A DNA stretch of 64,000 nucleotides from a virus (IMGVR_UViG_3300042197_000820:62001-126000); one strand, 5' to 3'; numbered from the stretch's first letter, positions 20,530-40,717 are shown. The notes: generated by a model from the sequence alone, not told the origin. Numbers and translations are program-made.

Positions 20530-21990
20530 CTACTCTACTCTAAACTTGAAAGTCTCGGGTTGTTCAACATAAGATCCGATAGATCCGTTGTAATAAGAGA
20601 ACTTTATAGCATAACTATAACCGGCTTCAAAAAGATTCGTATCTAAATCAAAATAGTTTCCTTCTGAGTCGTAGGAAAGTGCCGTATGTTGTGTGCTGCC
20701 TGTTCCGTAAGCTATTACGTCCAGATCGTCTATAACGCGATAAACCTTATATGAACCGCTTTCTACAATGGAGGCAACAGGTGTTGCTGTCGCAACCGTA
20801 TAGACTGTAGGAGTCCAGTTTCTAGGTCTTGCGTAAACTCTAAATCTTTCTGTTTGCCCCCTTGTATAAGTAGGTTTGAGATTTGTTATTTGAGTAGTAA
20901 ACTGTTCTGCATTGGCCGAAGATTCTCCAGCCAGAACTTGTGGTTCTATTGAACCTGTGAAGTATTGGGTAGTTAGATTTCCGTTGTGCCATACGTCGAA
21001 AATCGTTTCTAATGGGGTTGTGGCAGCGGTTAGTGCAAAGCTAGCCGAGTAGATACCCGTAGACACCCAGCCGCCTGTAACAACCGTTGGAGAGCCTGCT
21101 GTAACGCTTATTCCATCAGCCACAAGGGTCAATGCCGAGGCGGTCGGAACGGTCGAACCAGAGAAAACCGATACATAGACGTTACCCGTTCCAACGGCTG
21201 GAATATTCCTGAGAATACCACGATGGTAGTTATAAAAGTAGATTGTATTTAGATTTTCGGCTGCGGTAGACAAAGAACTACTGTAGAAGAAGTTAGCTCT
21301 TTTATCTTTTTTAGCACTATTGAAGCGTGCTTCGATTACTGGTCTTCTGAAGAAGAACTCTGACGATCTTGCAAAAAACCTTTTAGTGTAAAGAGAAGTA
21401 GTCGGCGCGCTCTCGGCAGAACCAGAGATCTTTATAAGTAATCCATCATTTGGTTTCGTACCAGCTAACCATTGTTCCACTATATCACTAACATTTACTA
21501 GTAGATCTTCGGTCCCATCAGTTCCGAAAGATTGAGTGAATACTGGAGTAGAGTAATAATCTCCCCCTTCGGATACCCACCCAGCCGTCGCACTGGCACT
21601 AATCCAGTTAGAAACATCTGAGTCTGAGTAGTCATCTAAATCTAATCCTCGGCCTTCTGTCCAAGAACCGCTAACTGCTCTTATTTCTAGATCATAGTTT
21701 CTTGGTACCGAGTAAGCGTGGGCTGCATTAGTCATTTTAAGATAAAAAGAAACGTTTCCAGAAGCAGCTAATAAACCAGATGATCTATCTGTTGTCATCT
21801 GATTAGTATCGAACTGTATTAGCATTCTGCTTTTTTCTATAGAAGAACTAGAAGCCTGTCCATAAATAACAAAAGTCTCCAAGACATCTGCGAGTCCTGT
21901 ATTAGAACCAGTTGCCCTCGTTATCAAATCGCCCTTAAAAGCGTTTGATATTGTATTATCTTTTGTAGCATTGTAACGTTTTATGGCCAT
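20530..21990 (-). CDS. Structural protein with DNRLRE-like domain
   Basis: 486 residues. Residues about 40-225 show the plan of DNRLRE/CBM-like domains: a repeated small-residue start, LIQFDTNQM, a SGSWTEGRGLDLDDYS strand, then DIVEQWLAGTKPNDGLLIKI. That last W-x-x-G-x-x-x-N-x-G-L-L-I-K piece is diagnostic in my view. The family is normally extracellular and beta-sandwich in fold. The C-terminal half has further beta repeats (TGIYSASFALTA; YSYAIKFSYYNGS), probably Ig-like. The ATG overlaps the stop of gp6 by one base. It is likely a fibre or baseplate protein exposed on the virion, working with the adjacent LamG protein. Confidence 0.65.
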   Translation of the reverse strand: MAIKRYNATKDNTISNAFKGDLITRATGSNTGLADVLETFVIYGQASSSSIEKSRMLIQFDTNQMTTDRSSGLLAASGNVSFYLKMTNAAHAYSVPRNYDLEIRAVSGSWTEGRGLDLDDYSDSDVSNWISASATAGWVSEGGDYYSTPVFTQSFGTDGTEDLLVNVSDIVEQWLAGTKPNDGLLIKISGSAESAPTTSLYTKRFFARSSEFFFRRPVIEARFNSAKKDKRANFFYSSSLSTAAENLNTIYFYNYHRGILRNIPAVGTGNVYVSVFSGSTVPTASALTLVADGISVTAGSPTVVTGGWVSTGIYSASFALTAATTPLETIFDVWHNGNLTTQYFTGSIEPQVLAGESSANAEQFTTQITNLKPTYTRGQTERFRVYARPRNWTPTVYTVATATPVASIVESGSYKVYRVIDDLDVIAYGTGSTQHTALSYDSEGNYFDLDTNLFEAGYSYAIKFSYYNGSIGSYVEQPETFKFRVE

Positions 21991-23801
21991 TATTCAACAA
22001 CTCCTACTAAATCTAGATCAGAATATTTTAGTTCCATACATACATTCTTCGGAACTATCAAATAAGTTCCGTCTGGAGATAAAGCTGAGTTAAAATCAAA
22101 ACTATTTGATGAGTAATAGCCGTCAACTCTTGGTACTATTTTGACTTTTTTAGAATCTATAACTCCCCTTACTTGCTTGTTTAAAACAGAATAAACTTCA
22201 GAGATAGAAATCATCTGTCCAAAATAGCCGGGTCTTGCAAAATGTTGTGCTAGTTTTGTTTTGGCATCAGCTAAAACTTGTTGTTTATCATAGATTTTGT
22301 CTACTAAAATAGTAAACTCTACACCATAGTTTACGACGATACCATCAAGTATATCAATGGTGTCGTGCATCATCTTATATCTATTCAGCCAGTTTTTAAG
22401 ATTTTCTTTTAAAATACCCGTTGCTAACTCTAGTTTCCCATTGATATCGCTGGCAAGGACAAAGAGGTTGATATTTCTTTTAAACGAGTTTGAATCTTTA
22501 TATGCAGCGGCGCGAGCAATAGAACCAAACTTAGCTGGCATTGCATACGAAACAGATTCTAAATCTTGTTGAGTTACCGCCCTATGTTGTGTGGCAAAAT
22601 AAGAACTAGATCTTGCTCTTATTTCGTCGGTGGTCATGAGTGTGCTTTGTCCAACAATCGGCTCTTCATTTACGAGTTCTACGCTACTCCTGATCGTTCT
22701 TACCACATCGGATGCTAGTGAAGGTTCATCTGTGAACTCTAGTATTGCATCGACTACTCTCGTTAAACGACCCACTGGTACGTTGACAGTATCACTTTCA
22801 TTGTATCTATAGGTTATTGTTAGAGTAGTGTCAGAAGGAGATACACCGAGTTTATCGGAAAGCATCAGTTTATTTGGATCAAATCCTTGTTCTGTTTCGT
22901 AATCACGGCCATATCTATTCAGTAAAACACTATTGGGTTCGGCATAACTTGGATTATTTAGTGTGTCTTCGGAACCAAAACCAAACTGTAAGTATGGAAC
23001 TCCCTCTCTAGTCATCTCAAATGTGAATCTTCTTGGGACTGAGAAAGGTCTTAAGATTGATGGAACTACTGTTTTATCGATCCCTTTATTCTCTATCTCT
23101 CTATATACTACATTTTGTGTCAGATAATCTACTTCGTAATATTCATGGCCCTCATTATCAAGAACCTGTATTATTTCATTAATGTTACGTCCGCTTAACG
23201 ATACTCGTTTAAACTTCTCAAAAGATCCAACTTGAACTATTTCTGTTCCCAATCTGCCAGAGATAACTTTACCAGATTTTCTCAAAGCATAATAGGTTGG
23301 TATACCAGTAACTGTATTTATTCTGGCTGGTACTATATCTGTGTCTGGTGTATCAAATCTAACATCGTCTAACAAAGTAAATGTTGCGTTAGTGGCACTA
23401 CTAAATACGGAGTTTTTCTTTAGTATTGGAAAATAAGATCTGTCTGGGCCACTCAAGGGAGAAGTTGAGTTAGCAGGTATCAAAACATAAAAAACTGCCA
23501 ATCCAGATGAACTTGATGGTCCCTTAAACTTGAAACCGTTCTGTTCAGCTAGTTTCTTGACATTATTATATTCTACAGCAGTTGACAAAAAAGATTCATT
23601 AGCTTGATAGTCTAGGTAAAATGATAAAATATCTCCAACATAGGATACACTGTCTAGCATCAAAGCACCAAAGCTAGCATCGCTAAAGTCTTTGAACGAA
23701 TCTGGGTAGTATCTCCTTGCGAACTCAACCAAATCAGTTTTGATTGTTTGGAAATCTCTGGAACTGTATTTGATTAATGGTCTTTTAGGATTACTACTCA
23801 T
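21990..23801 (-). CDS. 6: Baseplate wedge protein, gp6-like (J family)
   Basis: 603 residues, ATG start. The N-terminal region is characteristic of T4 gp6-type wedge proteins: YSSRDFQTIKTDLVEFARRY, DFSDASFGALMLDSVSYVGD, then LSFYLDYQANESFLSTA, followed by KKLAEQNGFK. In T4, gp6 forms the ring that holds the wedges together and triggers the baseplate change. The length is near that of T4 gp6 (about 660). The gene directly follows gp25, as expected for neighbouring partners in the inner baseplate. I am confident of the family. Confidence 0.9.
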   Translation of the reverse strand: MSSNPKRPLIKYSSRDFQTIKTDLVEFARRYYPDSFKDFSDASFGALMLDSVSYVGDILSFYLDYQANESFLSTAVEYNNVKKLAEQNGFKFKGPSSSSGLAVFYVLIPANSTSPLSGPDRSYFPILKKNSVFSSATNATFTLLDDVRFDTPDTDIVPARINTVTGIPTYYALRKSGKVISGRLGTEIVQVGSFEKFKRVSLSGRNINEIIQVLDNEGHEYYEVDYLTQNVVYREIENKGIDKTVVPSILRPFSVPRRFTFEMTREGVPYLQFGFGSEDTLNNPSYAEPNSVLLNRYGRDYETEQGFDPNKLMLSDKLGVSPSDTTLTITYRYNESDTVNVPVGRLTRVVDAILEFTDEPSLASDVVRTIRSSVELVNEEPIVGQSTLMTTDEIRARSSSYFATQHRAVTQQDLESVSYAMPAKFGSIARAAAYKDSNSFKRNINLFVLASDINGKLELATGILKENLKNWLNRYKMMHDTIDILDGIVVNYGVEFTILVDKIYDKQQVLADAKTKLAQHFARPGYFGQMISISEVYSVLNKQVRGVIDSKKVKIVPRVDGYYSSNSFDFNSALSPDGTYLIVPKNVCMELKYSDLDLVGVVE

Positions 23802-24238: not shown

Positions 24239-27200
24239 TTAGCCGTTGTTGGCTGAACCGTTCCCATTAGTTGGATCTGGTACTAGCCTCTTAGAGTTAC
24301 CTGTGCCTATAATATCAATCAAGTCTCCAAGTCCCTCCCTATCCTGTGGTCTTATACGATTTGCGGCCAAAATATCATTCTGTATATCGGATATCATAAC
24401 CAAAGTTTCCTTTGTAATATTACGAATACCAAATGTTTTTGTTTGCTCGATCAACTCTGTTGTTATCATTTCTTCATTTTCATCTCCTTCGCCTCGGTAG
24501 TTGAGGTCAAAAGAGTTATAAGAAGAATAGAACACTTTTCTCAAAGTTGTATAGAAAGGAAGTAATATGTCTTTTTCTTTCCTAGGGAAAACTTTGTTAT
24601 TTACACGACCAATACCGCCCCAATCAATAGCAGAACCAATAGAGGGAGTGAAAGCTTTTGTTGCATATATCGCACTCAAAGAAGCAAAATACCGTAATGG
24701 TATAGCATAATCAAACATCTTCTTATAATCTTCGGAACAAATCATTTCATTGAATAGCCTAACATCTAGTTGTCTTGTAAGCGGGGAATGATCGATCCAA
24801 GATTTCTTATCTGACCCCTTGCTAAGCTCTCTGCCCAAGCTATCTGGGCTTATAATATTAGAGGTTACAGCACTAGTAAGAGAAGTATCATTATTAAGAT
24901 TACTAATATAGGAATCGTATATGTTCTTAAGATCTGCAAATGTCCAATCTACTTCTATTTCGTTCTTAAAAATCGGAATGCCATATCCGGTTTCTTTACT
25001 AAAAGCCTTAAGATATCTTACTTTATCAGCAATAGGAATACCATCACTCAAAGATTGTAAATAGGTAACGTCTTCTGACGAAGGACTAGCTGTATAAACC
25101 TCTCTTACAACTGCATCTTGCATATACCTGTGGAACCCTTCTTCAAACGTAATATCAGAATCTGGCTGCATTAGCAACATTCTAACACCATATCTAAAAG
25201 TTCCAAACTTGAAGAATAGTTTAGCCGACATACTCATTGCATTTGATGTGGAAGATGAGATCTGTTCCAATGAATCAAAGAAACCGCTACTGCCTAACCA
25301 ATATATAAATGTACTTAAGCTGCTTGGACCACTGAACACTCCTTCTGTTAGCGGAGTAGCAGCAATACCATATCTACTTCCTAAGAAGTTGTATAACGCT
25401 ATATCTATTAGTTGTTTAACCTGTGAAAATAGTGGGCTAGTTTGACTAGGCATCTCAGTTAAAGGCTCAAGATTTATGTAGTGTTCTAAGGTTATTGGTA
25501 GAGGAGTTTGGCTGAAAACAAGAGGCATGTTGGTCGCACTCTCACCACCGATTATGTAGTTGTCAGTTCCTAGTTTCTGGAACTCTGCACCGTCAGTGGC
25601 CATAACCTTGTATTTCTTTAGTTTACTTTCAGGAGCCATATTACCCGTACTACTCTCAACGTTTAAAGAAACTCCTTGATTGTCCTCTATTCTTTTAATA
25701 ACGTTTTCTAGATTCTGAGAATATTGAAAAACAATCATGTCTTCGAATAACTTTCGGTCTATTGCCTTAGTGTCCTCTGGGGATAAAATGAAATCATTAC
25801 TAAGTCTATTTCTCTTTTCTAACTCAATACCATTTATAATCTTTGGAGTTAAAAACTCTGGATTGAACTTTAGGTAGTCTACATCAGTAAGTTCCGACTG
25901 GTTCTTCAGGTATTCTCTTACTGTTGTACGAATCTGTAAATCTGATGGGTCATTGAAGTTGAAGTTTGGAGTGTAAACCGGTTCTTTCGGATCGCTATTC
26001 AATCTGCAAGTATCATCTGGATGTGGTTGCTTATTATACAGTCTGTTGAAGAAGAAACCATTTAGATTCCTATCGTTATTAGCTTCCTCAGTACCATAAA
26101 GATAAGAATAGTTTAAATCACTGGTAAGCAGATTGCCTACCGAATATAAGAATGCTGGGTGGTGGGAGTACACATTTCGTAAATGTGATGTCTTATCGGA
26201 GGCTGCTAGATCTTCGCCATTTTGAACAAACGGACCACCATTGACAGGAGTTGCTATAATATTTGATTCTTTTACTAAAGTAGGATTCAAAATGCTCAGT
26301 TGTTGAGATATTCTTTCTAACTCAGTTTTAAATCTTCTTCTAAGCAAGAGATCAAACAATGATTCACAGTCCTGCATTATGAGATTCCAATACTGCTTTT
26401 GTAAAGAAATCTGTGTTTCTCTTCTTTGTTTAGCAGTATTAAGAGTGTTGTTCATTCCTCTGAAACTTCCTTGCGTGTTAACAAGACCAGTTGTTATAGT
26501 TCCTAGAGGATATCCCGGTGTTTCAAACTTACCTATTTCTTCAAATGCATTAAAATATGCCTTCTCGGCATCTGTCAAACCACTATCAGGTAATCCAGAT
26601 TTCCAAATATTTGCTTTCCTAAGTATTTGGCTAAGTATTTGTTGTTCGGATTGTGAGAGTTCTAAATCTTTTGCGTCTTTTCTTCTAAGCATGATAGTGA
26701 CATAAATCTCCATTATCATGTAGAAAAATCTCTTATTTTTACTAAGTTCTGTGGCTTGTCTAGGTCCAGCTTCAACGGCATAATCCTTGAATCTTTGCAC
26801 CAGAAAGTCATAATATACATTATCAAATATATTATCATTTACTACAACACTGTTCATAAACGAAAATGCTTTATAATAATGCTCAAAACAAAATACTCTT
26901 ATCATCATATCGATAAGACCGGACATGCTAACCATAGATGATTTTTTTACGATTAAATCAAATGGAACTTGATTACTGTAGTCTTTTGATTGCCTAGTTT
27001 CTTCTTTTATCTTCGTGTAAAGTCTAGCAGCTTCATTGGCGATACCAGCGAAATCAGGCACCGGATTTTTAGGTGGATTGGAAGTCTCGTTAGATTCTCT
27101 AGTATAGAGATTATATAATCCATTCCAATCATCAGTTAGTTTCTTATATACATAAAAACTAGGACTGTCTTCGGTACCACCAAATCTTGTAGGATCTACA

Positions 27201-30200
27201 GGATCTAACATTCCTGTGATTGTATTAGTGTGCAAGAGATTTAGTGTGTTGATTCTTTCGTCATCAAAACCAATATTAAAAGTTTTTCCGTTAAGTGCCG
27301 GGAGTTTCATTATCCCGTCCAAGAATGTGTTGGAAGTGTGACGATACAAATCCTTTACGAGATATTCAACATATTTAGTCGCTTGTGGAATAGTAGAAGG
27401 ATCAATATTTAAGTTATTCCGAATACCTTTAAGAACTATGTCTGCGAAGACGGCTGCTTGAGGAGATGTGTCGGTACCTTCTAGATTGTAAAGAGATTGT
27501 ACTTCTATTGAAGAGACTGTGTTCTCATTTATGGGAATGTAATAGTCATTTGGTTCTTTAACAACCTCTTGATATTCGATAGTCTTATCAGAAGACATAA
27601 AGTTTGCTGCTCTAGAGATTGTATTAGATACTTCATTTTGCTGAAGTTGGTATTCATTGGCGTTTAGCTGAGTGCTGTTAAAAGTTTTAACGGTAGAGGG
27701 ATACAGATCAATGATTTTGGTTCTTATACTTAAGTTTGTAGCTTCTCCTTCATTGATAGGAAAGATGAAAAAGTTATAGCTCTTTGTCCTGTAGTTAGGA
27801 CTACCAGAAATAGTATTTGAGCTTTCTTTGCTGCTTATTCTTCTAGAATATTCAGGTAATGTAGGAGGTGCTTTCTTGTCTCTCGTTATTAAAGCTACGC
27901 TCTGTTCTAACCCCTTAACATCATTGTATGAGTTACTTATAACACCGGGACCACTAAAACCTGCCGGATTTAATATATTTTCCTTATTTCGCAAAACCCA
28001 TTCTGGAACGTAAATAGGTTTCTTGAACTGGTACGATTTGGTGGATAGGTTGGTTTGTCGAGTGCCCGGTATAGTTAAGTCCTCTATATAACTTTCTTTT
28101 AAGTCGTATATACCAGTATAACTTAGACCTCTTATGCCTGATCCTACATCTCCTATTATTTCAAACAGTTCTGGGTATCCTACAGGGAAGGTTGATGCGT
28201 TTTGATCTATAAAACTATTAAACTGGTCAGTATTGAGTGATTTTATTTTTTGTATTCTCTGTTTAACGGTTTCCGTCAGCAAGGCTGAGTCTGTTGAAAA
28301 AAGACCAGTTTTCTTGCGTGTAATCGAATCAAGATTACAAAACTCTTCTAAGTTTGTCCTCATCCAACTTGATAGTTGTTTAGCCTTATAGGAGACTTTA
28401 GGATAGTCTTTTGATAGTTCGGTCACTGGAGCAGACTGGTTATTTGCGCTAGCTTCAATCGAGGCTGCAAGTTGTGAGACTGCGGCTTCTGACGCCAGAC
28501 TGTTGTTTATGATTTCTTCCACTTTCTGATATGATGGATAAGCTAGACCATTCTTACCGCTTAGAAGGCGGCTAATAAATCCTCTGTCTCCAATCATATT
28601 TGAATCTAAAGTTTCCACAACCGGTTCAAATGCCTCGGTATATATACGGACTAGCTCTTGATTTATGAAATCAGTTACTATTTCTATAGAGTTATTTGGA
28701 CCGCAGTTCGGCTCTCCAGTTTGTATGAGAGGTATCATACTATCTATCGGATTATCATCGTTTAAAAGATCTAAAAACTTTTGAGCTTGAAGATTAGTTA
28801 TCTCACAAACCTTATTTATTTGTATCTCTATGTCAGATTGATCCAATCCTCTTTCAGATAGTAACGAAACACGAAGATTATTATATAAACTGTAATACTC
28901 TGGAGTTGCACAGAAAATACCGTTTACAGGTAGATCTACCTCTGTTAATATCATATCGCAACCGGGATCAGCAAATGTTGATATAGAACCAAAAAATCTT
29001 ACAATATCATCCATCTCTTTGCTGAATCCAGCATCGGGGTACCTTACGTCAATGATATTTCTTATTATCTCTAGAGTTGGTAAAGTGGGATTACCCGACA
29101 ATAGCTCACAATATTCTCTTTCTGTCAATACGCTAGTCGTAAGTGAAATGAACTCGTTTAAGGTAGCGATATCGATACCGTTATATAGACCCACAGAGTT
29201 GGCAATATTAGCTAATAGTTCGGCAATAGAATCTATATTTATTCCTCTAGGGAGAGAACGATATCTTTGTCTAATATCATCAGCTATTTTTCTAGCTGCA
29301 TCTAAAGGATCGACAGTTCTGTTTTGATCTTCTGGACCGAGTTCTTCGTTGGGTACTATTTTAGCTGCTAGCTGGGCGCAAGAAATATCTGGTATTAAGC
29401 TTTGTAGATATGCTAAAACCATCTTGAACAAGATAGTCGTTGCAATATAGAAGGTAGAAGACAAAGTGGCTAATAAAGCTGTTTCCACTAGCTCTAGTCG
29501 ATTTGGAACTTGTATCTTCGGTAGATTCTTTTTACCTAGTTTTGCTGGTTTGAATCCACGGAAAAAGTTATCGATTGCTTTACCCAAGTCTCTATATTTA
29601 TGGAACATCTCCGGTTCTGGGAGTTTGCAGTTTTCTAACCCGTCGAATAAGGACTGCAAATCATCTTGGGCACCAGTAACTAAGTTAGTTAAATCTTCTG
29701 ACAGGCTAGAAAGTGATATATCACCTAACAAATCCCCGTTTGCATCGCGAGATACTAGCTTTAGATCTAAGCCAAGCTTTCCATTTTGCATAAAGCTAAT
29801 CGATGCACTACTCACCTTTTTAAAAGTTTCAGGATCTGTAGTATCTATCGAGTCAGGATTAGTAATAACTAAAATCTCATCCCAACTAACAACTGACGCT
29901 AACGACTCTGGTAGGTCTGGTTGGGATTTAATATGATCTAAGAAAGCTTGTTGTATTTTAGAATCAAACTGGCTTGATGTAAGTATCGAGCTTAAAAATC
30001 TAGAGACTAATGTAAAGGTATTTGATGCTTCTTGGAAGTTCTTGTCTTTGATTGATTCAAATAGCTTTTCCATAAGAACATCTGGGCTTAAGTTTTTAAG
30101 ATATTCTTCGACATTAAACTGTGTAAGTTGTTCGATTGGGATAGACCTCGCGATTGATGCTAAACCTATGTATCCTAACAACTTTAAGCCATTCAAACCG

Positions 30201-30658
30201 AAAGCTTCCAGTAGTCTTTCACGGGCTTCGCGACCAGAATCCGTCTTAGAAAAGAAACCATTATCAGTATCTTTTGACAACACAACGTTTTCAGTTAAGG
30301 AATCTACTAAATCATTAAGTACTTCCGCTAGTGGGTCATTAGCACTTAGATTTGCGTCATCTACTAGTAAAGCTTTTAAAGACTTTTTAGTTGGATTTCT
30401 TAGGAGTTCGTCTTCTTTTATTTTATCCGAGTACGATTTAAAAGGATTCTTATTGTACTCATTTGCGAATGGTTCCAAGCCTTGTTCTCTAAGATCTTGT
30501 AGGACATCATTCAGCACTTGAGTCGCAAAATCTTTCAAGAATCTTGTTCTTGGAGCTTGCAGCGGATTGTTTGAGCTACTAACCGGATCGTATTGTATCG
30601 GTGGGTATCTTAGTGTTGCAGCAAACTCTTTAAAGTTAGTACCTTTCTTATTAGACAT
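24239..30658 (-). CDS. Giant virion protein, 2139 residues, probable baseplate/hub-associated
   Basis: 2139 residues, ATG start, ribosome site AAGGAA. Unlike the LamG-bearing protein it is largely helical and charged (for example residues 45-110 and 1350-1480), with scattered Cys and many Asn/Asp. No signal peptide or clear transmembrane helix; one hydrophobic stretch near residue 400 (LLATLSSTFYIATTILFKMV) might be membrane-interacting. No catalytic triad or known repeat is recognised. It lies between the hub/spike genes and gp25, where phages with long tails usually encode tape measure, hub or wedge proteins. Size and helicity would allow a tape-measure role, but long uninterrupted coiled coils are not evident, so I leave function open. 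Confidence 0.7.
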   Translation of the reverse strand: MSNKKGTNFKEFAATLRYPPIQYDPVSSSNNPLQAPRTRFLKDFATQVLNDVLQDLREQGLEPFANEYNKNPFKSYSDKIKEDELLRNPTKKSLKALLVDDANLSANDPLAEVLNDLVDSLTENVVLSKDTDNGFFSKTDSGREARERLLEAFGLNGLKLLGYIGLASIARSIPIEQLTQFNVEEYLKNLSPDVLMEKLFESIKDKNFQEASNTFTLVSRFLSSILTSSQFDSKIQQAFLDHIKSQPDLPESLASVVSWDEILVITNPDSIDTTDPETFKKVSSASISFMQNGKLGLDLKLVSRDANGDLLGDISLSSLSEDLTNLVTGAQDDLQSLFDGLENCKLPEPEMFHKYRDLGKAIDNFFRGFKPAKLGKKNLPKIQVPNRLELVETALLATLSSTFYIATTILFKMVLAYLQSLIPDISCAQLAAKIVPNEELGPEDQNRTVDPLDAARKIADDIRQRYRSLPRGINIDSIAELLANIANSVGLYNGIDIATLNEFISLTTSVLTEREYCELLSGNPTLPTLEIIRNIIDVRYPDAGFSKEMDDIVRFFGSISTFADPGCDMILTEVDLPVNGIFCATPEYYSLYNNLRVSLLSERGLDQSDIEIQINKVCEITNLQAQKFLDLLNDDNPIDSMIPLIQTGEPNCGPNNSIEIVTDFINQELVRIYTEAFEPVVETLDSNMIGDRGFISRLLSGKNGLAYPSYQKVEEIINNSLASEAAVSQLAASIEASANNQSAPVTELSKDYPKVSYKAKQLSSWMRTNLEEFCNLDSITRKKTGLFSTDSALLTETVKQRIQKIKSLNTDQFNSFIDQNASTFPVGYPELFEIIGDVGSGIRGLSYTGIYDLKESYIEDLTIPGTRQTNLSTKSYQFKKPIYVPEWVLRNKENILNPAGFSGPGVISNSYNDVKGLEQSVALITRDKKAPPTLPEYSRRISSKESSNTISGSPNYRTKSYNFFIFPINEGEATNLSIRTKIIDLYPSTVKTFNSTQLNANEYQLQQNEVSNTISRAANFMSSDKTIEYQEVVKEPNDYYIPINENTVSSIEVQSLYNLEGTDTSPQAAVFADIVLKGIRNNLNIDPSTIPQATKYVEYLVKDLYRHTSNTFLDGIMKLPALNGKTFNIGFDDERINTLNLLHTNTITGMLDPVDPTRFGGTEDSPSFYVYKKLTDDWNGLYNLYTRESNETSNPPKNPVPDFAGIANEAARLYTKIKEETRQSKDYSNQVPFDLIVKKSSMVSMSGLIDMMIRVFCFEHYYKAFSFMNSVVVNDNIFDNVYYDFLVQRFKDYAVEAGPRQATELSKNKRFFYMIMEIYVTIMLRRKDAKDLELSQSEQQILSQILRKANIWKSGLPDSGLTDAEKAYFNAFEEIGKFETPGYPLGTITTGLVNTQGSFRGMNNTLNTAKQRRETQISLQKQYWNLIMQDCESLFDLLLRRRFKTELERISQQLSILNPTLVKESNIIATPVNGGPFVQNGEDLAASDKTSHLRNVYSHHPAFLYSVGNLLTSDLNYSYLYGTEEANNDRNLNGFFFNRLYNKQPHPDDTCRLNSDPKEPVYTPNFNFNDPSDLQIRTTVREYLKNQSELTDVDYLKFNPEFLTPKIINGIELEKRNRLSNDFILSPEDTKAIDRKLFEDMIVFQYSQNLENVIKRIEDNQGVSLNVESSTGNMAPESKLKKYKVMATDGAEFQKLGTDNYIIGGESATNMPLVFSQTPLPITLEHYINLEPLTEMPSQTSPLFSQVKQLIDIALYNFLGSRYGIAATPLTEGVFSGPSSLSTFIYWLGSSGFFDSLEQISSSTSNAMSMSAKLFFKFGTFRYGVRMLLMQPDSDITFEEGFHRYMQDAVVREVYTASPSSEDVTYLQSLSDGIPIADKVRYLKAFSKETGYGIPIFKNEIEVDWTFADLKNIYDSYISNLNNDTSLTSAVTSNIISPDSLGRELSKGSDKKSWIDHSPLTRQLDVRLFNEMICSEDYKKMFDYAIPLRYFASLSAIYATKAFTPSIGSAIDWGGIGRVNNKVFPRKEKDILLPFYTTLRKVFYSSYNSFDLNYRGEGDENEEMITTELIEQTKTFGIRNITKETLVMISDIQNDILAANRIRPQDREGLGDLIDIIGTGNSKRLVPDPTNGNGSANNG

Positions 30659-33062: not shown

Positions 33063-34097
33063 TTAGTTAACCTTATTCTTGCTACTCATAATAGAAACTG
33101 GTGCCATACCATCTAGATATTTCTTTTTGAACTTAGCCATGTTTTCTTTAAATGTAATCATCTGAGTACTGATTTCCTGTGCTGTTCTGCTTGCTTTTAT
33201 AGATCTTGCTTGTTTTATTGCAACATCAGCCTCTATAGATACCAAAGCACCATCAATAGTCTTAGAACCGGGATGTATATGGCTGCTTAAGGACTTATCG
33301 AAATCTTGTTGGATTATCACCATGCTATCTAACAATGAGGAGACATCAGTAACAATGTCAGCTAACTCTGTAATACAAGAAGCCAGATTCTTTCCTAAAA
33401 CCATAGGCTGTAGTGTGCTGTCATCATTCCCAGCAATAATATCTATACCATAGCTAGAAAGTGTTTTACCAATACCACCAACTTGTTCTCTGACAAATGG
33501 ACCTGTTACAAGTTTTATATTTTCTCTAGCGATTATTCTAACGCTATCAGCTTTTACACCAATACCAGATTTTGCTACTGAACTTAAAGAACCTCTTGCG
33601 AGTTCATAGTTATTGTCTATATCTGTAAGTTGTGAAATATAAATGCCAGCAGCATCAGTTTTAAGATTATTATCAGAAATAACTTCTGCTTTTCCCTTCA
33701 AATCTGGTGGCATAGCTTTTCCAGCGATTATATAAATCGAACCAGCATTTGTAGCTCCTAAGTTGCCATATCCGCTACTTTTACTTGCTGGTCTATCTCG
33801 GCCTATAATAATAAATGCATTATTATCATTTTTAAGTACTTTTTCATAATCCGCTGTATTATGCTCAGGAACATGTTCTTTGATTGCATCGCCATTCAAA
33901 CCACCACGAAAAGTTCTATTCTTATGTAAAGGATCGTTCTGTACTAATCTAGCATATTCTGGAAAGTAGTTTGGTTCATGCATCTTTCTAGATGATGCAA
34001 GCAAACGTATCCTTCCTTTTGTGGAAGGTACATCATCAAAGACAGATCCAGCCGACATACCGCTTTTAAATACATTTTCGGATTCTGATTTAGACAT
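33063..34097 (-). CDS. Baseplate spike-like structural protein
   Basis: 344 residues, ATG start after CGGAG. Residues about 115-230 contain the repetitive strand pattern typical of spike and VgrG-like beta-structures (GSIYIIAGKA, GIYISQLTDI, GVKADSVRIIARENIKLVTG). Near residue 275 is SHIHPGS; an HxH in this setting recalls the metal-binding motif at the tips of contractile-tail spikes, though it is followed here by a helical tail instead of ending the chain. It sits directly downstream of the two hub-like enzymes. A spike or central hub role is inferred from pattern and place. Confidence 0.6.
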   Translation of the reverse strand: MSKSESENVFKSGMSAGSVFDDVPSTKGRIRLLASSRKMHEPNYFPEYARLVQNDPLHKNRTFRGGLNGDAIKEHVPEHNTADYEKVLKNDNNAFIIIGRDRPASKSSGYGNLGATNAGSIYIIAGKAMPPDLKGKAEVISDNNLKTDAAGIYISQLTDIDNNYELARGSLSSVAKSGIGVKADSVRIIARENIKLVTGPFVREQVGGIGKTLSSYGIDIIAGNDDSTLQPMVLGKNLASCITELADIVTDVSSLLDSMVIIQQDFDKSLSSHIHPGSKTIDGALVSIEADVAIKQARSIKASRTAQEISTQMITFKENMAKFKKKYLDGMAPVSIMSSKNKVN

Positions 34098-34138: not shown

Positions 34139-35425
34139 TTATAGTTGAGTGTATTCATTACCACTTACACTATTCTTGAGAATATTAGCACATGTGGAAA
34201 TCAACCCATTTGTTCCGGGCCAATCCCAAGAACCTGCACTAGCTGCGTGTGAACCAGCAACTGAGAATGATTTAAATGCCGTGTTATTCATGTTAGTCAT
34301 GCGAATATTTTCGGGCATCAAGATACCCTGATTTATAACTCTGAACGGTGGGGAGAAGCCTCTGAACGGGCTACTTGATCCAACATAGAAGTTATCAATA
34401 TCGTCACCCGTTTTGCTTATATTATTCCCGTGGTTAGGGGATTTCATAATCCAAAAATATTGTGCTTGTGGAAATAATCTTTTTAGTTCTTCGTGAATAC
34501 CACCAATCGATTTTTTAACACTAGCTGGGTTGAATCCGTCATTTCCACCTATGTTTATTATTATACCATTGTTGGCTATTCCAGCATAGTTTTCCACAAG
34601 TGCGTTTTTCAAACCCAATAGTTGACATCCCGCACCGCCGCCGCCATTTAATAAATCAGCCGCTCTTGTACCAGCACATTGCAGATTAGTACCAGCAATA
34701 GAAGTAGATGTGCCTGCTTTTCCGCAAGCTTTTGTACCTATTGGCTTAGACATGGAAGCACCTATAAATAAACCGGGACCAGTCTGGGCACCACCGGGAT
34801 CAGCAGGGACTCCAGTATCACTAAATGAATCACCCGCTCCGCCACCGCCGGTACCACCGCCGCCAGTAACAGTGATTTTAATGTAAGAATTTACGTCTTT
34901 CTTGATAAATACTTCTTTTATAATCCCACTTGACATTGTGATTTTATCTTGGAACTCTACGAGTAGCACATCTCCTACTTGTATATTACCTACCATCTTT
35001 CCTTTTAAATCATCCAGAGGCGCATAAAACTTACCGGTGTGATTTCTTATCCTAGTTACATCTTTAGTGGGTAAAATAATATTTCCTGTACTTAGATCTA
35101 CAACACTATCAGGATCAGGTATCGCTCCATCCATATCCTGCATCCTACCTATAACACAAACAAAAGTTCTCGTACCATATGAATCTAGCAGTTGTTTGTG
35201 TCCAAGATTAATATCGGATGGCATTTTAATGTCGTTATCGACAGCTATAACTTCTACTAATCTTTCTTTAGGATTTACTTTGGTCGTTGCAAATATATTA
35301 GACCGTGTAGTATCTTTCATGGCAGAGAGTGGATCTGCTGCTATTGTACCTAGATCATGAACCCTATTCTTTGGTTTTCTATCCGGTGGTACAAAAAAAT
35401 CAACAGGATATTTATTTCCGCTCAT
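34139..35425 (-). CDS. Hub-like baseplate protein with C-terminal SGNH hydrolase-like domain
   Basis: 428 residues, ATG start. Residues about 30-180 are an OB-fold-like hub domain that is plainly paralogous to the next gene upstream: both share DPL-x-A-x-K, ERL-x-EV-x-AVD, KxPSD, YGTRT, DGA-x-PDPD, GKFYAPL-x-D, NIQVGD and QDK. A Gly-rich linker (187-197) follows. Residues 218-428 resemble an SGNH esterase: block I GLFIGASMS with candidate nucleophile Ser224, and block III NIGGNDGF at 291-298. The usual C-terminal DxxH is not obvious (the region reads SWDWPGTNG), so activity is uncertain. Likely deacetylates or de-esterifies a host surface glycan during infection. Neighbours are the transglycosylase-bearing paralogue and the spike-like gene. 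Confidence 0.72.
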   Translation of the reverse strand: MSGNKYPVDFFVPPDRKPKNRVHDLGTIAADPLSAMKDTTRSNIFATTKVNPKERLVEVIAVDNDIKMPSDINLGHKQLLDSYGTRTFVCVIGRMQDMDGAIPDPDSVVDLSTGNIILPTKDVTRIRNHTGKFYAPLDDLKGKMVGNIQVGDVLLVEFQDKITMSSGIIKEVFIKKDVNSYIKITVTGGGGTGGGGAGDSFSDTGVPADPGGAQTGPGLFIGASMSKPIGTKACGKAGTSTSIAGTNLQCAGTRAADLLNGGGGAGCQLLGLKNALVENYAGIANNGIIINIGGNDGFNPASVKKSIGGIHEELKRLFPQAQYFWIMKSPNHGNNISKTGDDIDNFYVGSSSPFRGFSPPFRVINQGILMPENIRMTNMNNTAFKSFSVAGSHAASAGSWDWPGTNGLISTCANILKNSVSGNEYTQL

Positions 35426-35428
35426 TTT

Positions 35429-36880
35429 CTAACCCTTAAGATAGGCTAAATCTGAATCTGTCGCAGCCGCACAAGCTATCATTCTAGCAATAACGAACGC
35501 TCCTGTTCCATACGAACCGCCACAGGTTTTTCTGTCTATAGCGGCCCAAGCATTGGCAAGATCATTATTATTTTTAAAGTTCAGGAATCTCTGTTCTTTA
35601 CCGCCTTCGCCACCATTATAATACGACATTGCTACAGCAGCAGCAGCAGATTCTGATAGCCCTTTACCTTTTGCTCGGTTCCAAGCTGACAAAAATACTT
35701 TTTTTATGACTTTAGAAGTCCATAGTGGATCGTTTGGATTCCAAGTACCTATCTCCTCAAACATGGCATAAATATCGTGTGCAGTGGCATCGATTTGAAC
35801 TGGGCCGAACCCATAGTTACAATATTTACTGGTACATGTAGCTGACCATCCTTTCTCTGGGATGGTGTGCCAGTTGTCGTAAGTTTTACCTTTTATTTTT
35901 GAGCTTCGTGGCTTTCTAGCTGATACCAACCCAGATCCATTTAAATGATAGCCAGTGTTTCCTCCTTCTTTGATATACTTTGCACCGCCTTCGTGTATCG
36001 AGATAGCAGCAATAATCGCTGGTGGGACTTCTGGGGTAAGTCGAATAACTTCTTTCATCCATTTCATAACCTCGGGATTTGTAAATACATTTTTATGTGA
36101 ACTAAGATCGCTACAAGGTGGGTCAAATCTACCTTCACATTGGGACGCACCAATATTATTACTATAACAAAATGGATCTTCACCGAAAATAGCAGCAGCG
36201 TTCAATGGACCAAACTGAGTTGCTAAGTCTCCACTAAGTGCTGGTCCATTAGGACACCCAACTATAGGCTGGCCCGTTATGGTCAAGCCGGATTCATCAC
36301 CGCCGCCGTCGCCGCCGCCGATTTGTTGCCAAGTTGAAAGGTCTTTTTTGAGATAAACATCTTTTATAACACCATTATTTCTTAAAAGTTTATCTTGATA
36401 TTCAACTACAAGCCAATCACCAACTTGTATATTTAAGGCACCTTTTCCCTGTATATCCTCCAGTGGAGCATAAAACTTTCCAACATTTGCTCGTAATCTG
36501 GTTGTTTCTTTAAAAGGTATGGTTATGGTAGTACCATCTGGAGATTCATAAGTTTGGTCTGGATCTGGTACTGCCCCGTCCTGATCTATCAGTCTGCATA
36601 TAGCAGAAATCCAAGTTCTTGTTCCATATTGGTTAGCTACAGATGTATTACCAAAATAGTTAAGATCGCTTGGAAGTTTAACAGCTATATCCACAGCTAA
36701 AACTTCTGCTAATCTTTCTCCCTCTTGAAATCCCTCAGTTTCAAAAAAAGAAGCTCTATACGACTCTTTTATTGCTCGTAAGGGATCTTGAGATAAAGAG
36801 TCAATATCCTGGGTTCTTAACTTATCTCTAGAACCGGGAGAAACTAAAGCATCTATTGGTGCCTTAAAAGATTCAGCCAT
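35429..36880 (-). CDS. Hub-like baseplate lysozyme, lytic transglycosylase-type (gp5 analogue)
   Basis: 483 residues from the ATG at 36880, which has a GGAGGG ribosome site; an upstream in-frame ATG at 36898 lies within the preceding gene and is less likely. Residues about 30-180 form the same OB-like hub domain as the paralogue just downstream. After a Gly/Asp linker (about 189-197) comes an SLT-type lysozyme domain: IIAAISIHEGGAKY with candidate catalytic Glu297, then YGFGPVQIDATA at about 356-367, matching the Glu and G-x-x-Q-I motifs of lytic transglycosylases. AVAMSYYNGG near the end fits the family's Y-N motif. The role is cutting peptidoglycan under the baseplate, as T4 gp5 does with an unrelated lysozyme domain. 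Confidence 0.82.
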   Translation of the reverse strand: MAESFKAPIDALVSPGSRDKLRTQDIDSLSQDPLRAIKESYRASFFETEGFQEGERLAEVLAVDIAVKLPSDLNYFGNTSVANQYGTRTWISAICRLIDQDGAVPDPDQTYESPDGTTITIPFKETTRLRANVGKFYAPLEDIQGKGALNIQVGDWLVVEYQDKLLRNNGVIKDVYLKKDLSTWQQIGGGDGGGDESGLTITGQPIVGCPNGPALSGDLATQFGPLNAAAIFGEDPFCYSNNIGASQCEGRFDPPCSDLSSHKNVFTNPEVMKWMKEVIRLTPEVPPAIIAAISIHEGGAKYIKEGGNTGYHLNGSGLVSARKPRSSKIKGKTYDNWHTIPEKGWSATCTSKYCNYGFGPVQIDATAHDIYAMFEEIGTWNPNDPLWTSKVIKKVFLSAWNRAKGKGLSESAAAAVAMSYYNGGEGGKEQRFLNFKNNNDLANAWAAIDRKTCGGSYGTGAFVIARMIACAAATDSDLAYLKG

Positions 36881-36881
36881 A

Positions 36882-37175
36882 TTAATTCCCTCCGTCATTC
36901 TGGAGTAGATCGAAAATCTTATCTTTATCCAGTTCGGTGATATCAGCAGCGGCGGTTTCTCGCTTCTGGAGTATCATGGCAATCTTTACAAGTTGTTCAT
37001 TCGAACGTTGCAGCGTTTCTACATATTTTGCTGCAACGGAACCGGCAAACTTGTGATTTTCTTCGTCTTTGGCTAAAAGACGCATAACATCGTCAAGAAG
37101 CTCCCTTGTAACTTCTCTATCATCTTCGATGTTCTTAATGGCACTAGCTATGTGTTTATCTACTTCATTACTCAT
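36882..37175 (-). CDS. Small helical phage protein downstream of the sigma factor
   Basis: 97 residues from the ATG at 37175, which overlaps the sigma stop as ATGA; a TTG 15 bases upstream is the longer alternative. The protein is helical and highly charged: MSNEVDKHIASAIKNIEDD, then a Lys/Glu-rich middle and KDKIFDLLQNDGGN at the end. No known motif. It joins the regulatory genes to the hub genes, one base before the hub lysozyme. Function unknown. Confidence 0.7.
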   Translation of the reverse strand: MSNEVDKHIASAIKNIEDDREVTRELLDDVMRLLAKDEENHKFAGSVAAKYVETLQRSNEQLVKIAMILQKRETAAADITELDKDKIFDLLQNDGGN

Positions 37176-37855
37176 AGATCTTGGTCCCAATCCTTTCGAA
37201 ACTCTTGATAGTTTACTTTGAGCCTTTTGAGAGAAGAGACAACCTGCTTTGTATTTAGGCCGGTAATCTCTCTTAGGTATAAGTAAATAGCTTTCTTATT
37301 AAAAATCTCGATTTCATGGGCTGATTCAAATAACACTTGTATAGCTTTGATTACTTTCTCATCGTTTGGCTTATCAGATTCTTCCATCCAATCAATCATG
37401 TTGGCACGAAGATTATCGATAAGTTCGTTATGTTCTCTAACGTTCTCGTATGGATTATCTTCTGATAAGAACCGTAGCTCTAAATCCTTTGGCATCTCTT
37501 GAATGTCAAGTTCCGTCTGATTCTTCTTGGATTTTCTCTTGACCTTATGTATGAACCAGTTCTTGGTTATAACTGAAAAATAAGAGAAAGCTTTTGAGCC
37601 TTGACTTACATCGTACTTATCAAGTATTGTGATAAGCCAAATCTTGCATTCATCACGAAGGTAATCGATGTTTGGTAATGTGGTAAACTTATAAGTAAAG
37701 ACAATCTTATCTACCATCTCATCGAAAGCAGGACCAATCAACTTTACATAAAGATCGGTTCTAACCCTTTTGTCGTTTGTCGCGACGTACTCAAGAATCG
37801 CGTTTTCGTGTTCCTGCGTAAAATACTTCTTGGTTGGCTTTGTACTGCGGCTCAT
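37172..37855 (-). CDS. 55: Late-transcription sigma factor, gp55-like
   Basis: About 227 residues from the ATG at 37855 (MSRSTKPTKKYFT), chosen because related phage sigma factors begin at this motif; the frame is open farther up to 37912, with alternative ATGs at 37873 and 37870 that have a better ribosome site. Sigma-70-like region 2 is visible: DEMVDKIVFTYKFTTLP, DECKIWLITILDKYD, KAFSYFSVITKNWFIHKVKRK, the last being the conserved FSYFS...NWF block of gp55 homologues. The C-terminal half contains an HTH-like segment. In T4, gp55 directs RNA polymerase to late promoters. The gene overlaps its upstream neighbour by about 65 bases. Confidence 0.9.
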   Translation of the reverse strand: MSRSTKPTKKYFTQEHENAILEYVATNDKRVRTDLYVKLIGPAFDEMVDKIVFTYKFTTLPNIDYLRDECKIWLITILDKYDVSQGSKAFSYFSVITKNWFIHKVKRKSKKNQTELDIQEMPKDLELRFLSEDNPYENVREHNELIDNLRANMIDWMEESDKPNDEKVIKAIQVLFESAHEIEIFNKKAIYLYLREITGLNTKQVVSSLKRLKVNYQEFRKDWDQDL

Positions 37856-38192
37856 TCTCTGCTTCTTCATCATCTTCCTCTTGTTCGTCAGGAAGATCTT
37901 GCAATGGCTCATTGGTCAAGTCCATGATTTCAGAGAACTGCTCGATCTTCGATGTGAAATACATACCATGTTCTAACAAACCGCCAAGTGTTTCGTCACC
38001 ATAGAAGCTCTCTAGTTCGTAGAGACTCTTTAAGTGTGAAGTAAAACTTACTGCTTCGTTATTAAGTTCAGTAATGTTCTTTGATACAAAGTTGATGTTC
38101 TTAAGCAAAAATCGTATGTAGGCTACAAGCCCTACGATAAATGCAAGAGATAGTAAGAAAGCTATTGTCCAGCTATTGATCTCAACTATCAT
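37791..38192 (-). CDS. Membrane-anchored small protein upstream of the sigma factor
   Basis: 133 residues, ATG start. Residues 8-30 (WTIAFLLSLAFIVGLVAYIRF) are a single transmembrane helix; a helical segment with coiled-coil character follows, and the C-terminus is strongly acidic (DEQEEDDEEAENE). Its last 65 bases encode the start of the sigma factor in another frame, which may keep their translation linked. I recall similar membrane-anchored proteins next to the late sigma gene in marine T4-like phages, but no function is known to me. Confidence 0.75.
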   Translation of the reverse strand: MIVEINSWTIAFLLSLAFIVGLVAYIRFLLKNINFVSKNITELNNEAVSFTSHLKSLYELESFYGDETLGGLLEHGMYFTSKIEQFSEIMDLTNEPLQDLPDEQEEDDEEAENEPQYKANQEVFYAGTRKRDS

Positions 38193-38649: not shown

Positions 38650-38847
38650 TCAATCCTCTAGTTCTTCGCCAAAAGAATCGTCTTCAAGTTTGACGATTGG
38701 TGGATTCATAACCATCAAACCTTGGTCTGATAGCCTAAACTTAAAACCCTTTAAAACAGGGACTATATCCGATTGCTCCATTAAAGACTTTTGTAGTGCC
38801 ATCATTAAAGCACCGATTGCTTGATCAGCTAGATTCATTTCATTCAT
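38650..38847 (-). CDS. Small conserved-looking phage protein
   Basis: 65 residues, ATG overlapping the GMD stop as ATGA, ribosome site AAAGGAG. It starts with a helix (LADQAIGALMMALQKSLMEQ), then a strand region (LKGFKFRLSDQGLMVMNPPI) and an acidic end (GEELED). No known motif. It is the first gene downstream of the sugar island. Function unknown. Confidence 0.68.
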   Translation of the reverse strand: MNEMNLADQAIGALMMALQKSLMEQSDIVPVLKGFKFRLSDQGLMVMNPPIVKLEDDSFGEELED

Positions 38848-39815
38848 TTTATTACTCCTTTGTATTCTTCATCATACATCATCTTAGCTAGTTCGACAAA
38901 CTTGACTTTTGGCTCCCAACCTAAATGGTTTTTAGCCTTTGTATAATCACCCAACAAAAATGGTACTTCATGTGGGCGATAAAGCCTAGGATCTATCTCA
39001 ACATGTTTATCTATATTAAGTTCAGCATGTTCAAAAACTTCATGTAAAAACTCACGAACTGTATGGGTTTCACCAGTAGCTATTACATAATCGTCTGGAT
39101 TATCTTGCTGTAACATTAGCCACATTGCTTCGACGTAATCGCCAGCAAATCCCCAATCGCGTTTAGCGTCTAGGTTTCCTAGGAAAAGTTTGTCTTGTAG
39201 TCCAGCCTTGATTCTTGCTGCTGCGAGCGTGATCTTTCTGGTTACAAATGTTTCGCCGCGTCTGGGAGATTCGTGATTAAAAAGAATACCAGATGTACAA
39301 AACATGCCGTAGGACTTACGATAGTTCCTCATTAGGTTATGCGCGAATACTTTTGCATTAGCATAAGGAGAGGCGGGCATCAAGATACTATCTTCATTAA
39401 ATGGATAGTTTGGGTTATCACCGTACATTTCTGAGGATGATGCTTGATAAAGCTTTACTTCTTTTACATCCCTGAAGTTTCTTATGGCTTCGACAATACC
39501 TAGAGTGCCGTTTACTATAGTGTTGATTGTAGAAGCTGGTACGTCGAAAGATACTCTAACGTGCGATTGTGCAGCTAAGTTATAGACTTCATCTGGTTTA
39601 TACTTTTGAAGAAGCCTATAAAATGACATGGGATCATCCAACTCAAAGTATTCTAACTTGAAGTTTTTATTTTCGAATACAGAATCGATTCTTTCAGTTG
39701 CTATCAAGGAAGTTCTTCTTTTTAGACCAACGACCTTATATCCCTTGGCTAATAACAACTCCGTCAAATAAGAGCCGTCTTGTCCAGTGACACCAGTTAT
39801 AAATGCTGTTTTCAT
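38844..39815 (-). CDS. gmd: GDP-mannose 4,6-dehydratase
   Basis: 323 residues. Converts GDP-mannose to GDP-4-keto-6-deoxymannose, the first step to GDP-fucose. It shows the NADP-binding TGVTGQDG at residues 7-14, the GMD-specific ASSSEMYG at about 125-132, the catalytic Tyr-Lys pair in YANAK (151-155) and SPRRGETFVTRK farther on. Slightly shorter than the usual 340-370. It overlaps the GDP-fucose synthase gene by four bases, so the two steps are coupled. GDP-mannose must come from the host, since no mannose activation gene is in the window. Confidence 0.95.
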   Translation of the reverse strand: MKTAFITGVTGQDGSYLTELLLAKGYKVVGLKRRTSLIATERIDSVFENKNFKLEYFELDDPMSFYRLLQKYKPDEVYNLAAQSHVRVSFDVPASTINTIVNGTLGIVEAIRNFRDVKEVKLYQASSSEMYGDNPNYPFNEDSILMPASPYANAKVFAHNLMRNYRKSYGMFCTSGILFNHESPRRGETFVTRKITLAAARIKAGLQDKLFLGNLDAKRDWGFAGDYVEAMWLMLQQDNPDDYVIATGETHTVREFLHEVFEHAELNIDKHVEIDPRLYRPHEVPFLLGDYTKAKNHLGWEPKVKFVELAKMMYDEEYKGVIK

Positions 39816-40717
39816 ATAACACCTCTTATATTCGGATACATACTTTTAACCCACTCACAGGTTTCTTGCAAGCCTTTTTTAAAAGAAGTATAATATTCTG
39901 GTTTCCATCCGAGATCTATGAGCTTTTGATTTGAACTTGGTTTTCTAAACTGACCGGACGGCTTATCTGTCCTCCAGATTATCCTTCCATCATATTCAAA
40001 TGTCTCACATACCATTTCAACGACTTCTTTTATGGAATGTTCTTCTGTGTTCCCAATATTAATCGGATGTTCACCGTCATAGTTATCTAATAAAAACAAT
40101 AAGATCCTTGCTATGTCGTCAGAATAAGTGAACTCTCGCAAAGGTGTTCCATCTCCCCAGCATTCAATAGAAGAATGGTTATTTAACTTAGCCTCCCACA
40201 CTTTCCTGATTAGCGATGGAATAACATGTCCATTATTCAAATCAAAGTTATCATTTTTTCCATACAGGTTATTTGGGATTGCTGTTATAAAGTTACAGCC
40301 ATATTGCTGTCTATATGCCCTAGACATTACATCAACCATTCTTTTAGCATATGCATAGCCAAAGTTAGAAGGATGTGGAGGTCCGAGGTGTAGTTGATCT
40401 TCAGTTAGTGGATAGGTGACATAAGCAGCGTCTGGGTAGACGCAGGTGGACAGTAACGAAACTACTTTCTTTGCTTTTCCGAAACAAGCAGAATCTAATA
40501 GTTTATTATTTATTATTGAGTTTTCAACGTAAAAGTCAGCCACATTATCTGTATTAGACTTCACGCCACCAACTCTTGCCGCCAAATGAATGATATACTT
40601 ATCCTTTATTTCAAAGTCTAAATCATGAAATCTTTTTTTATCTAGATATTCTGCTTCAGGTATAATCCTCCTAAATGAAGACCCTACCATACCAGTACCA
40701 CCAGTGATCAAAAACAT
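39812..40717 (-). CDS. fcl: GDP-L-fucose synthase (epimerase/reductase)
   Basis: 301 residues. Carries out the 3,5-epimerisation and 4-reduction that turn the GMD product into GDP-L-fucose. Motifs: GGTGMVGSS at 6-14, LARVGGV-like AARVGG at 46-51, LSTCVYPD at 89-96, and YAYAKR (121-126) holding the Tyr-Lys pair; PHPSNFGYAYAK is typical of this enzyme. Directly coupled to gmd. Together they give this phage its own GDP-fucose supply, matching the fucosyltransferase-like gene two genes upstream. Confidence 0.94.
   Translation of the reverse strand: MFLITGGTGMVGSSFRRIIPEAEYLDKKRFHDLDFEIKDKYIIHLAARVGGVKSNTDNVADFYVENSIINNKLLDSACFGKAKKVVSLLSTCVYPDAAYVTYPLTEDQLHLGPPHPSNFGYAYAKRMVDVMSRAYRQQYGCNFITAIPNNLYGKNDNFDLNNGHVIPSLIRKVWEAKLNNHSSIECWGDGTPLREFTYSDDIARILLFLLDNYDGEHPINIGNTEEHSIKEVVEMVCETFEYDGRIIWRTDKPSGQFRKPSSNQKLIDLGWKPEYYTSFKKGLQETCEWVKSMYPNIRGVI

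Follow-up and report, generated by a model that had tools for sequence, protein, structure and literature searches.

What use could a phage make of two adjacent baseplate hub genes that share one domain and differ in the enzyme behind it? The question is raised by a 64,000-nt stretch of viral DNA (hereafter the window; positions 62001-126000 of the 128,019-bp virus record IMGVR_UViG_3300042197_000820), in which an earlier note had described two neighboring ORFs, P0002 and P0001, as paralogous hub proteins ending in a lytic-transglycosylase-like and an SGNH-esterase-like domain, respectively. The two genes and their domains, with positions counted from the first letter of the window, are:

35429..36880, minus strand: P0002, hub paralog 1; ORF with OB-fold hub domain, linker, and SLT/GH23-like domain
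36320..36865, minus strand: predicted hub (gp5-type OB) domain of P0002, residues 12-193 in the numbering that starts with the ATG at 36898; from BLASTP, AlphaFold2 (AF2), and profile match
35432..36112, minus strand: putative SLT/GH23-like lytic-transglycosylase domain of P0002; from motifs and likeness to the NCTB lysin
34139..35425, minus strand: P0001, hub paralog 2; ORF of 428 aa with OB-fold hub domain, Gly-rich linker, and SGNH/GDSL domain
34874..35413, minus strand: predicted hub (gp5-type OB) domain of P0001, residues 5-184; from BLASTP, AF2, and profile match
34175..34780, minus strand: SGNH/GDSL domain of P0001; from Pfam, with Ser224 (GASMS), Asn295 (GGND), and His393 (GSHA)

Both ORFs were found where the earlier note had placed them, in tandem on the minus strand and separated by a gap of 3 nt. 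From its first ATG, the P0002 ORF extends over 35429-36898(-) and encodes 489 aa; we prefer the start at 36880 given in that note because GGAGG lies ~9 nt upstream of it and the preceding ORF is not overlapped. BLASTP aligned P0002 residues 12-193 with P0001 residues 5-184 at 82 of 182 identical positions (45%, E=4e-54), and all the short motifs that had been listed as shared are present and collinear in both proteins. The N-terminal domains are thus homologous; non-homology was the outcome named beforehand as speaking against the pair. Beyond this domain, BLASTP aligned nothing convincing between the two proteins, and their C-termini are unrelated. Direct tblastn searches with P0001, P0002, and their C-terminal domains returned nothing significant among 50,697 phage records, and pattern scans with either protein or with their two-row alignment recovered a single near-identical contig only.

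The shared N-terminal domain had no sequence match in Pfam, PHROG, or the PDB. Single-chain AF2 models, built from alignments of 44-46 sequences, gave a beta-rich domain for P0002 residues ~61-190, with pLDDT mostly 67-93, and an OB-like model for the hub domain of P0001 too. Foldseek placed OB-fold proteins (ribosomal S12/S23 family, aIF1A) in almost every top position for P0002, with no match reaching significance (E 0.02-0.3). A profile comparison of 76 hub domains with ten T4-type gp5 OB domains (hhalign) returned a probability of 87%, P=3.9e-6, and a score of 37.6, which was reached in 0 of 100 column permutations (maximum 17.6) and compares with 12.5 for the reversed profile. In two aligned regions, the T4 strand VRVRVVGLHP corresponds to an ARIPELH-type stretch in the hub family, and the T4 strand pair GTRVYGHFLDKWKTNGIVLGTY corresponds to a GDIV-V-F-D...GIYLG-type stretch. 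The PDB entry 9vzk, named Gp5, was the third match of the hub profile (E=1.8, two weak collinear matches). The predicted OB fold and the profile match to gp5 OB domains uphold the label of hub that the earlier note had given, and they support the shared domain being a gp5-type OB homolog. The structure prediction of both chains proposed in that note yielded OB-like N-terminal domains, and enzyme domains mostly at low confidence. The hub profile had no match in the spike proteins of Flavobacterium phage immuto, Microcystis phage Mel-JY01, and huge phage LR756508, and therefore a descent of the hub domain from their spike N-termini stays unsupported.

The C-terminus of P0001 matched Pfam Lipase_GDSL (PF00657) at 8.6e-8, with 33 bits against a gathering score of 23.6, which places the domain in the GDSL/SGNH family by sequence and agrees with the esterase-like end described before. 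Ser224, Asn295, and His393 lie at the positions of SGNH blocks I, III, and V and are kept in the corresponding protein of a related locus, L010, which is 38% identical over the whole chain. In both copies the GDS motif reads GAS or GGS and the catalytic Asp of DxxH is absent, the position being taken by Ala390 in P0001 and by Pro in the L010 copy. The AF2 model has part of an alpha/beta core at pLDDT 60-78 and much else below 50; the putative hydrolase 4h08 was among the Foldseek matches, all of which were nonsignificant. P0001 is described here as a predicted deacylase.

The C-terminal part of P0002 contains, in order, HEGG (302; AISIHEGG, with Glu303 as the candidate catalytic residue), GFGPVQID (363), and YYNGG (426). 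The order Glu, G-x-x-Q, and YN-G is typical of SLT/GH23 enzymes; the pattern was picked after the sequence had been seen. The domain had no match in Pfam, NCBIfam, PHROG, or the PDB, and SLT was absent in hmmscan and in a search of the whole record. Among the 50,697 phage records, its best tblastn match was the lysin of phage NCTB, itself a Pfam SLT protein (4.9e-12); the alignment covers motifs II and III at 32% identity, with E=2 in the database search and E=3e-7 pairwise. The score exceeded those of all 2000 shuffles, a lenient test because a second, apparently unrelated match did likewise. AF2 modeled the domain as all-helical with low confidence. The lytic-transglycosylase-like end reported for P0002 is therefore backed by motif order and by likeness to an SLT lysin, and not by a family-profile match; P0002 likely carries an SLT/GH23-like, wall-cutting domain. 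Neither Foldseek with the enzyme domains of both proteins nor a search of the enzyme cassettes against PDB sequences found anything significant. Profile comparisons of the SGNH domain of the window with those of the related loci L032, L159, and L037, and of its SLT-like domain with other lytic-transglycosylase domains found in the same gene slot (see below), were not significant, and the two cassettes of the window may for this reason be independent acquisitions.

The genes on either side define the slot in which the pair sits:

33063..34097, minus strand: P0003, spike-like protein on a separate gene, one slot boundary; a conserved neighbor in relatives
36882..37190, minus strand: small conserved protein (AAKYVETLQRSNEQLVK), the other slot boundary; from alignment and scan of relatives
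37172..37912, minus strand: gp55-like late sigma factor, syntenic with the slot; PHROG 234, E=0.0015

Iterated searches recovered P0003 homologs in 116-118 loci. Near the C-terminus of the P0003 family, HxH occurs in 63 of 91 members versus 2 of 91 shuffled sequences, which suggests a metal-bound tip like those of the P2 and phi92 spikes. P0001 and P0002 end with their enzymes, and a C-terminal beta-helix needle is absent from both chains. By position and homology, the two proteins correspond to the gp5* part of the T4 hub and P0003 to its needle part, on separate genes. This division, and the variation of the enzyme slot across a whole phage group described below, go beyond the earlier note. 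The sigma factor could be aligned with proteins of the Flavobacterium and Microcystis phages and of LR756508, and a wedge protein (21990-23801) shows ~30% identity to those of immuto, Mel-JY01, and LR756508. The tail region also holds two very large structural-looking ORFs, 11528-20527 (2999 aa) and 24239-30658 (2139 aa), the latter with no PHROG match. Adjoining the tail module at 38844-40717 are genes that by sequence resemble GDP-mannose 4,6-dehydratase and GDP-fucose synthase, followed by many more ORFs up to ~54.7 kb.

Relatives were found through scans with the sigma factor and the small conserved protein (80 loci each), which after removal of duplicates left 87 unique loci in which the slot, flanked by the small gene and a P0003-type spike gene, is occupied. 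Of 105 slot proteins, 87 (from 78 loci) were assigned a hub domain by an iterated profile, nearly always at the N-terminus; such a profile could drift, but independent support comes from where the domain lies, both within the slot and along the chain. Across 98 slot proteins, Pfam identified VanY (16), M23 (11), Amidase_2 (9), Phage_lysozyme2 (5), M15_4 (4), SLT (3), Lipase_GDSL (3), M15_3 (2), DUF2272 (2), GDSL_2 (2), and M15, GH25, Muramidase, and OmpA (1 each), where one protein may match more than one family. The hub gene is thus a socket for interchangeable cell-wall enzymes in this group of uncultured T4-like phages. Other arrangements occur in the same slot. The slot proteins of L015, L119, L122, L125, and L130 consist of the hub domain alone (196-220 aa, no enzyme), and the tail enzyme may be missing from these phages or be encoded elsewhere. 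A single 1185-aa slot protein (L133:5757-9314) combines VanY and Amidase_2, a pair that is split over tandem hubs in L023 and L158. The third slot gene of L123 (8358-10019) has an OmpA-like, peptidoglycan-binding domain and no enzyme, and its hub match is marginal.

More than one hub gene was present in seven loci: two in L009 (a copy of the window), L010, L023, L032, and L158, and three in L123 (counting its marginal match) and L159. Their cassettes are SLT-like and SGNH in L009, SleB-like (by eye) and SGNH in L010, Amidase_2 and VanY in both L023 and L158, SGNH and lysozyme-like in L032, SLT, VanY, and OmpA in L123, and SGNH, muramidase, and Amidase_2 in L159. Within a locus, BLASTP identity between paralogs is 26-69% and limited to the hub domain and the start of the linker, so that similarity ends near the domain-linker boundary. 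In a hub tree made by a quick method from a short alignment, and with several long branches, copy 1 of the window groups with copy 1 of L010 (SH-aLRT 81) and copy 2 with copy 2 (88); the duplication therefore predates the split of L009 and L010. The search for the same gene pair in other phages, which the earlier note had suggested, thus led to L010/L011, where the pair is orthologous to that of the window; copy 2 retained SGNH and copy 1 switched its enzyme. The same tree places the duplications of L032, L158, L159, and L023 apart from that of the window and L010, which makes at least five. The clearest natural swap is seen between L021, with one hub carrying SLT, and L023, with two hubs carrying amidase and VanY: nucleotide identity between the two is 77% as far as hub residue 172, and it resumes at 85% where the spike gene starts. 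A spike tree built from 36 loci calls for at least 22 changes of the enzyme set. Gene duplication followed by enzyme swap, proposed before for the window pair alone, is well supported by the confinement of paralog similarity to the N-terminal part, by the tree, and by L021/L023.

SGNH domains were found in six loci (the window, L010, L032, L159, L037, and L146) and never as the sole cassette. In five of them the SGNH domain adjoins another slot gene, and in L146 it lies within one chain with a putative second cassette; occurrence in multi-gene slots in five of six loci corresponds to a hypergeometric P=6e-4, or 3.5e-3 when the window and L010 are counted once. In the window, L010, L032, L159, and L146, the partner is, or resembles, an enzyme that cuts glycan strands, several of these being judged by eye (in L010 and L146 by eye only); in L037 it is an M23 peptidase, not a glycan cutter. 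The 988-aa chain of L146 (5813-8779) consists of a hub domain, SGNH (GDSL_2, 3.8e-5), and a C-terminal part with a lysozyme-like IESGG that had no Pfam enzyme match. In L037 (12701-13727), a stand-alone SGNH-like protein with FGDS, GGND, and DGLH follows directly after the M23 hub; it has no hub domain of its own and no Pfam match. A loose SGNH pattern match in L095 was rejected on inspection, and L092.3 matches the loosest SGNH pattern only.

Our preferred explanation, which as a whole we consider probable, is that P0001 and P0002 are gp5*-type tail-tip hub subunits of a far T4 relative, each built from an N-terminal OB-fold socket, a flexible linker, and an enzyme, with the needle on a separate gene. 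Tandem duplication of an ancestral socket gene would have come before the lineages of the window and L010 diverged, and the enzymes would have been exchanged where socket and linker meet, as happens across the whole phage group. Both proteins would reside in the virion tip and act on the same patch of wall. At infection, P0002 would cut the glycan strands of peptidoglycan by a lytic-transglycosylase reaction, and P0001 would remove acyl groups, most likely the MurNAc O-acetyls that block glycan-cutting enzymes. The T4 hub is made of three gp5 chains, whose lysozyme domains breach the peptidoglycan (PMC3004832). MurNAc O-acetylation blocks lysozymes and lytic transglycosylases, and the known Ape esterases, which reverse this modification, belong to the SGNH family (PMC6174289); for this reason we favor deacetylation and glycan cutting by one tip. 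That deacetylation unmasks the wall for the cutter is plausible, and O-acetylated peptidoglycan is a putative target of the esterase.

How the two subunits would be arranged in the tip can be read in two ways. Different paralogs might fill the three OB positions of a mixed hub trimer, bringing both enzymes into every virion; this is a finer version of the preferred explanation, not exclusive of it, and we regard it as possible but tentative. T4 gp5 forms trimers, which bear three lysozyme domains (PMC3004832), and paralogs never exceed three per locus (two in five loci, three in two), although seven cases are few. In L159, each of the three hubs carries a different enzyme (SGNH, muramidase, and amidase). 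With the spike encoded separately, the OB parts are not tied to trimerization of a needle, and VanY and Amidase_2 are found either in one chain (L133) or in two (L023, L158). Against mixing, the paralogs are only 26-69% identical, in the type VI secretion system (T6SS) of one species VgrG1 seems not to combine with VgrG2 (PMC4924876), and most loci manage with a single hub gene, so homotrimers presumably work. Each virion might instead carry a homotrimer of either hub, giving a mixed population or host-dependent use. The paralogs do retain the same socket next to one spike gene; however, their genes run in the same direction 3 nt apart, and the paired enzymes look complementary (amidase with VanY twice, SGNH with a second enzyme five times), which argues for joint use and makes such alternative tips unlikely.

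The role of the SGNH domain is the other point at which the preferred explanation can be challenged. SGNH enzymes deacylate many polymers, and SGNH domains are reported in phage tail fibers and capsule-specific receptor-binding proteins (PMC11058221, PMC13123978); with the catalytic Asp missing in P0001, its specificity is less certain, and it might deacylate capsule, LPS, or a membrane lipid on penetration and not peptidoglycan. We find this doubtful, as the domain sits on a hub and not on an adhesin, shares its socket with wall enzymes, and appears in the slot only alongside other enzymes or cassettes. A still more skeptical reading, in which P0001 has lost catalysis and serves as a structural filler or binding module, could point to the absent DxxH Asp, to GAS/GGS in place of GDS, and to the hub-only proteins (L015, L119, L122, L125) and the hub with an OmpA-like domain (L123) elsewhere. 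We judge it improbable: the window and L010 copies, 38% identical over the whole chain, share Ser, Asn, and His, the Pfam match lies above the cut-off, and the copies in L032, L146, and L037 have canonical GDS and GGND. The preferred explanation in its most specific form, with mixed-trimer tips of paralogous OB sockets in which a deacetylase and a lytic transglycosylase jointly attack O-acetylated peptidoglycan at entry, is a speculative proposal that we consider less likely than not.

T4 gp5 (gp5* plus gp5C), the tail-associated lysozyme of the baseplate hub, likewise has an N-terminal OB domain, homologous at the profile level, with an enzyme behind it, and likewise lies among baseplate genes with a spike adjoining. 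In T4, however, lysozyme and beta-helix are encoded by one gene as one chain that is cleaved after synthesis, whereas here the spike is a separate gene; and unlike in T4, the hub enzyme is exchangeable and the hub gene duplicated with different enzymes. T4-type gp5 carries a peptidoglycan-cleaving domain; P0002 has a candidate for one, SLT-like by motifs and by likeness to the NCTB lysin, and the SGNH domain of P0001 is not a cutter. The VgrG sets of the T6SS likewise comprise several gp5-like trimeric-tip paralogs per system that differ in their C-terminal domains, and VgrG heterotrimers with different effectors have been described as possible (PMC10433429). VgrG, however, is a secretion protein whose single chain unites a gp27 part with a gp5 part, whereas the phage socket is short and OB-only: in P0001 and P0002, ~190 N-terminal OB-type residues are followed by the enzyme, with no fused gp27-like domain. 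SGNH peptidoglycan O-acetylesterases such as Ape1 belong to the same family as the P0001 domain, and their activity would lift the block on glycan-cutting enzymes; Ape is, however, a bacterial housekeeping enzyme and P0001 lacks the DxxH Asp. Phages immuto, Mel-JY01, and LR756508 share the neighborhood of sigma factor, small gene, spike, gp25, and gp6, but unlike the window phage they have a single spike protein with its own N-terminus and no enzyme; in Mel-JY01 a separate protein is annotated as a putative chitinase. In the open-access literature, we found neither paired gp5 paralogs with different enzymes nor SGNH on such a baseplate hub. The hub type is known, and so in general is enzyme exchange in tail proteins; the combination seen here, a modular socket slot in which hub paralogs stand in tandem and the needle has a gene of its own, is a new form of these, as far as we could find.

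With these findings, the one tail lysozyme of the textbooks becomes a plug-in slot that holds about a dozen enzyme families in one phage group, sometimes two or three together. The relatives form a natural series of hub-socket domain junctions, and the slot allows a test of how particular wall chemistries select particular enzymes. A mixed-trimer phage tip, and a phage deacetylase acting against wall O-acetylation at entry, become testable as well. If true, mixed-trimer tips would be the phage counterpart of multi-VgrG tips.
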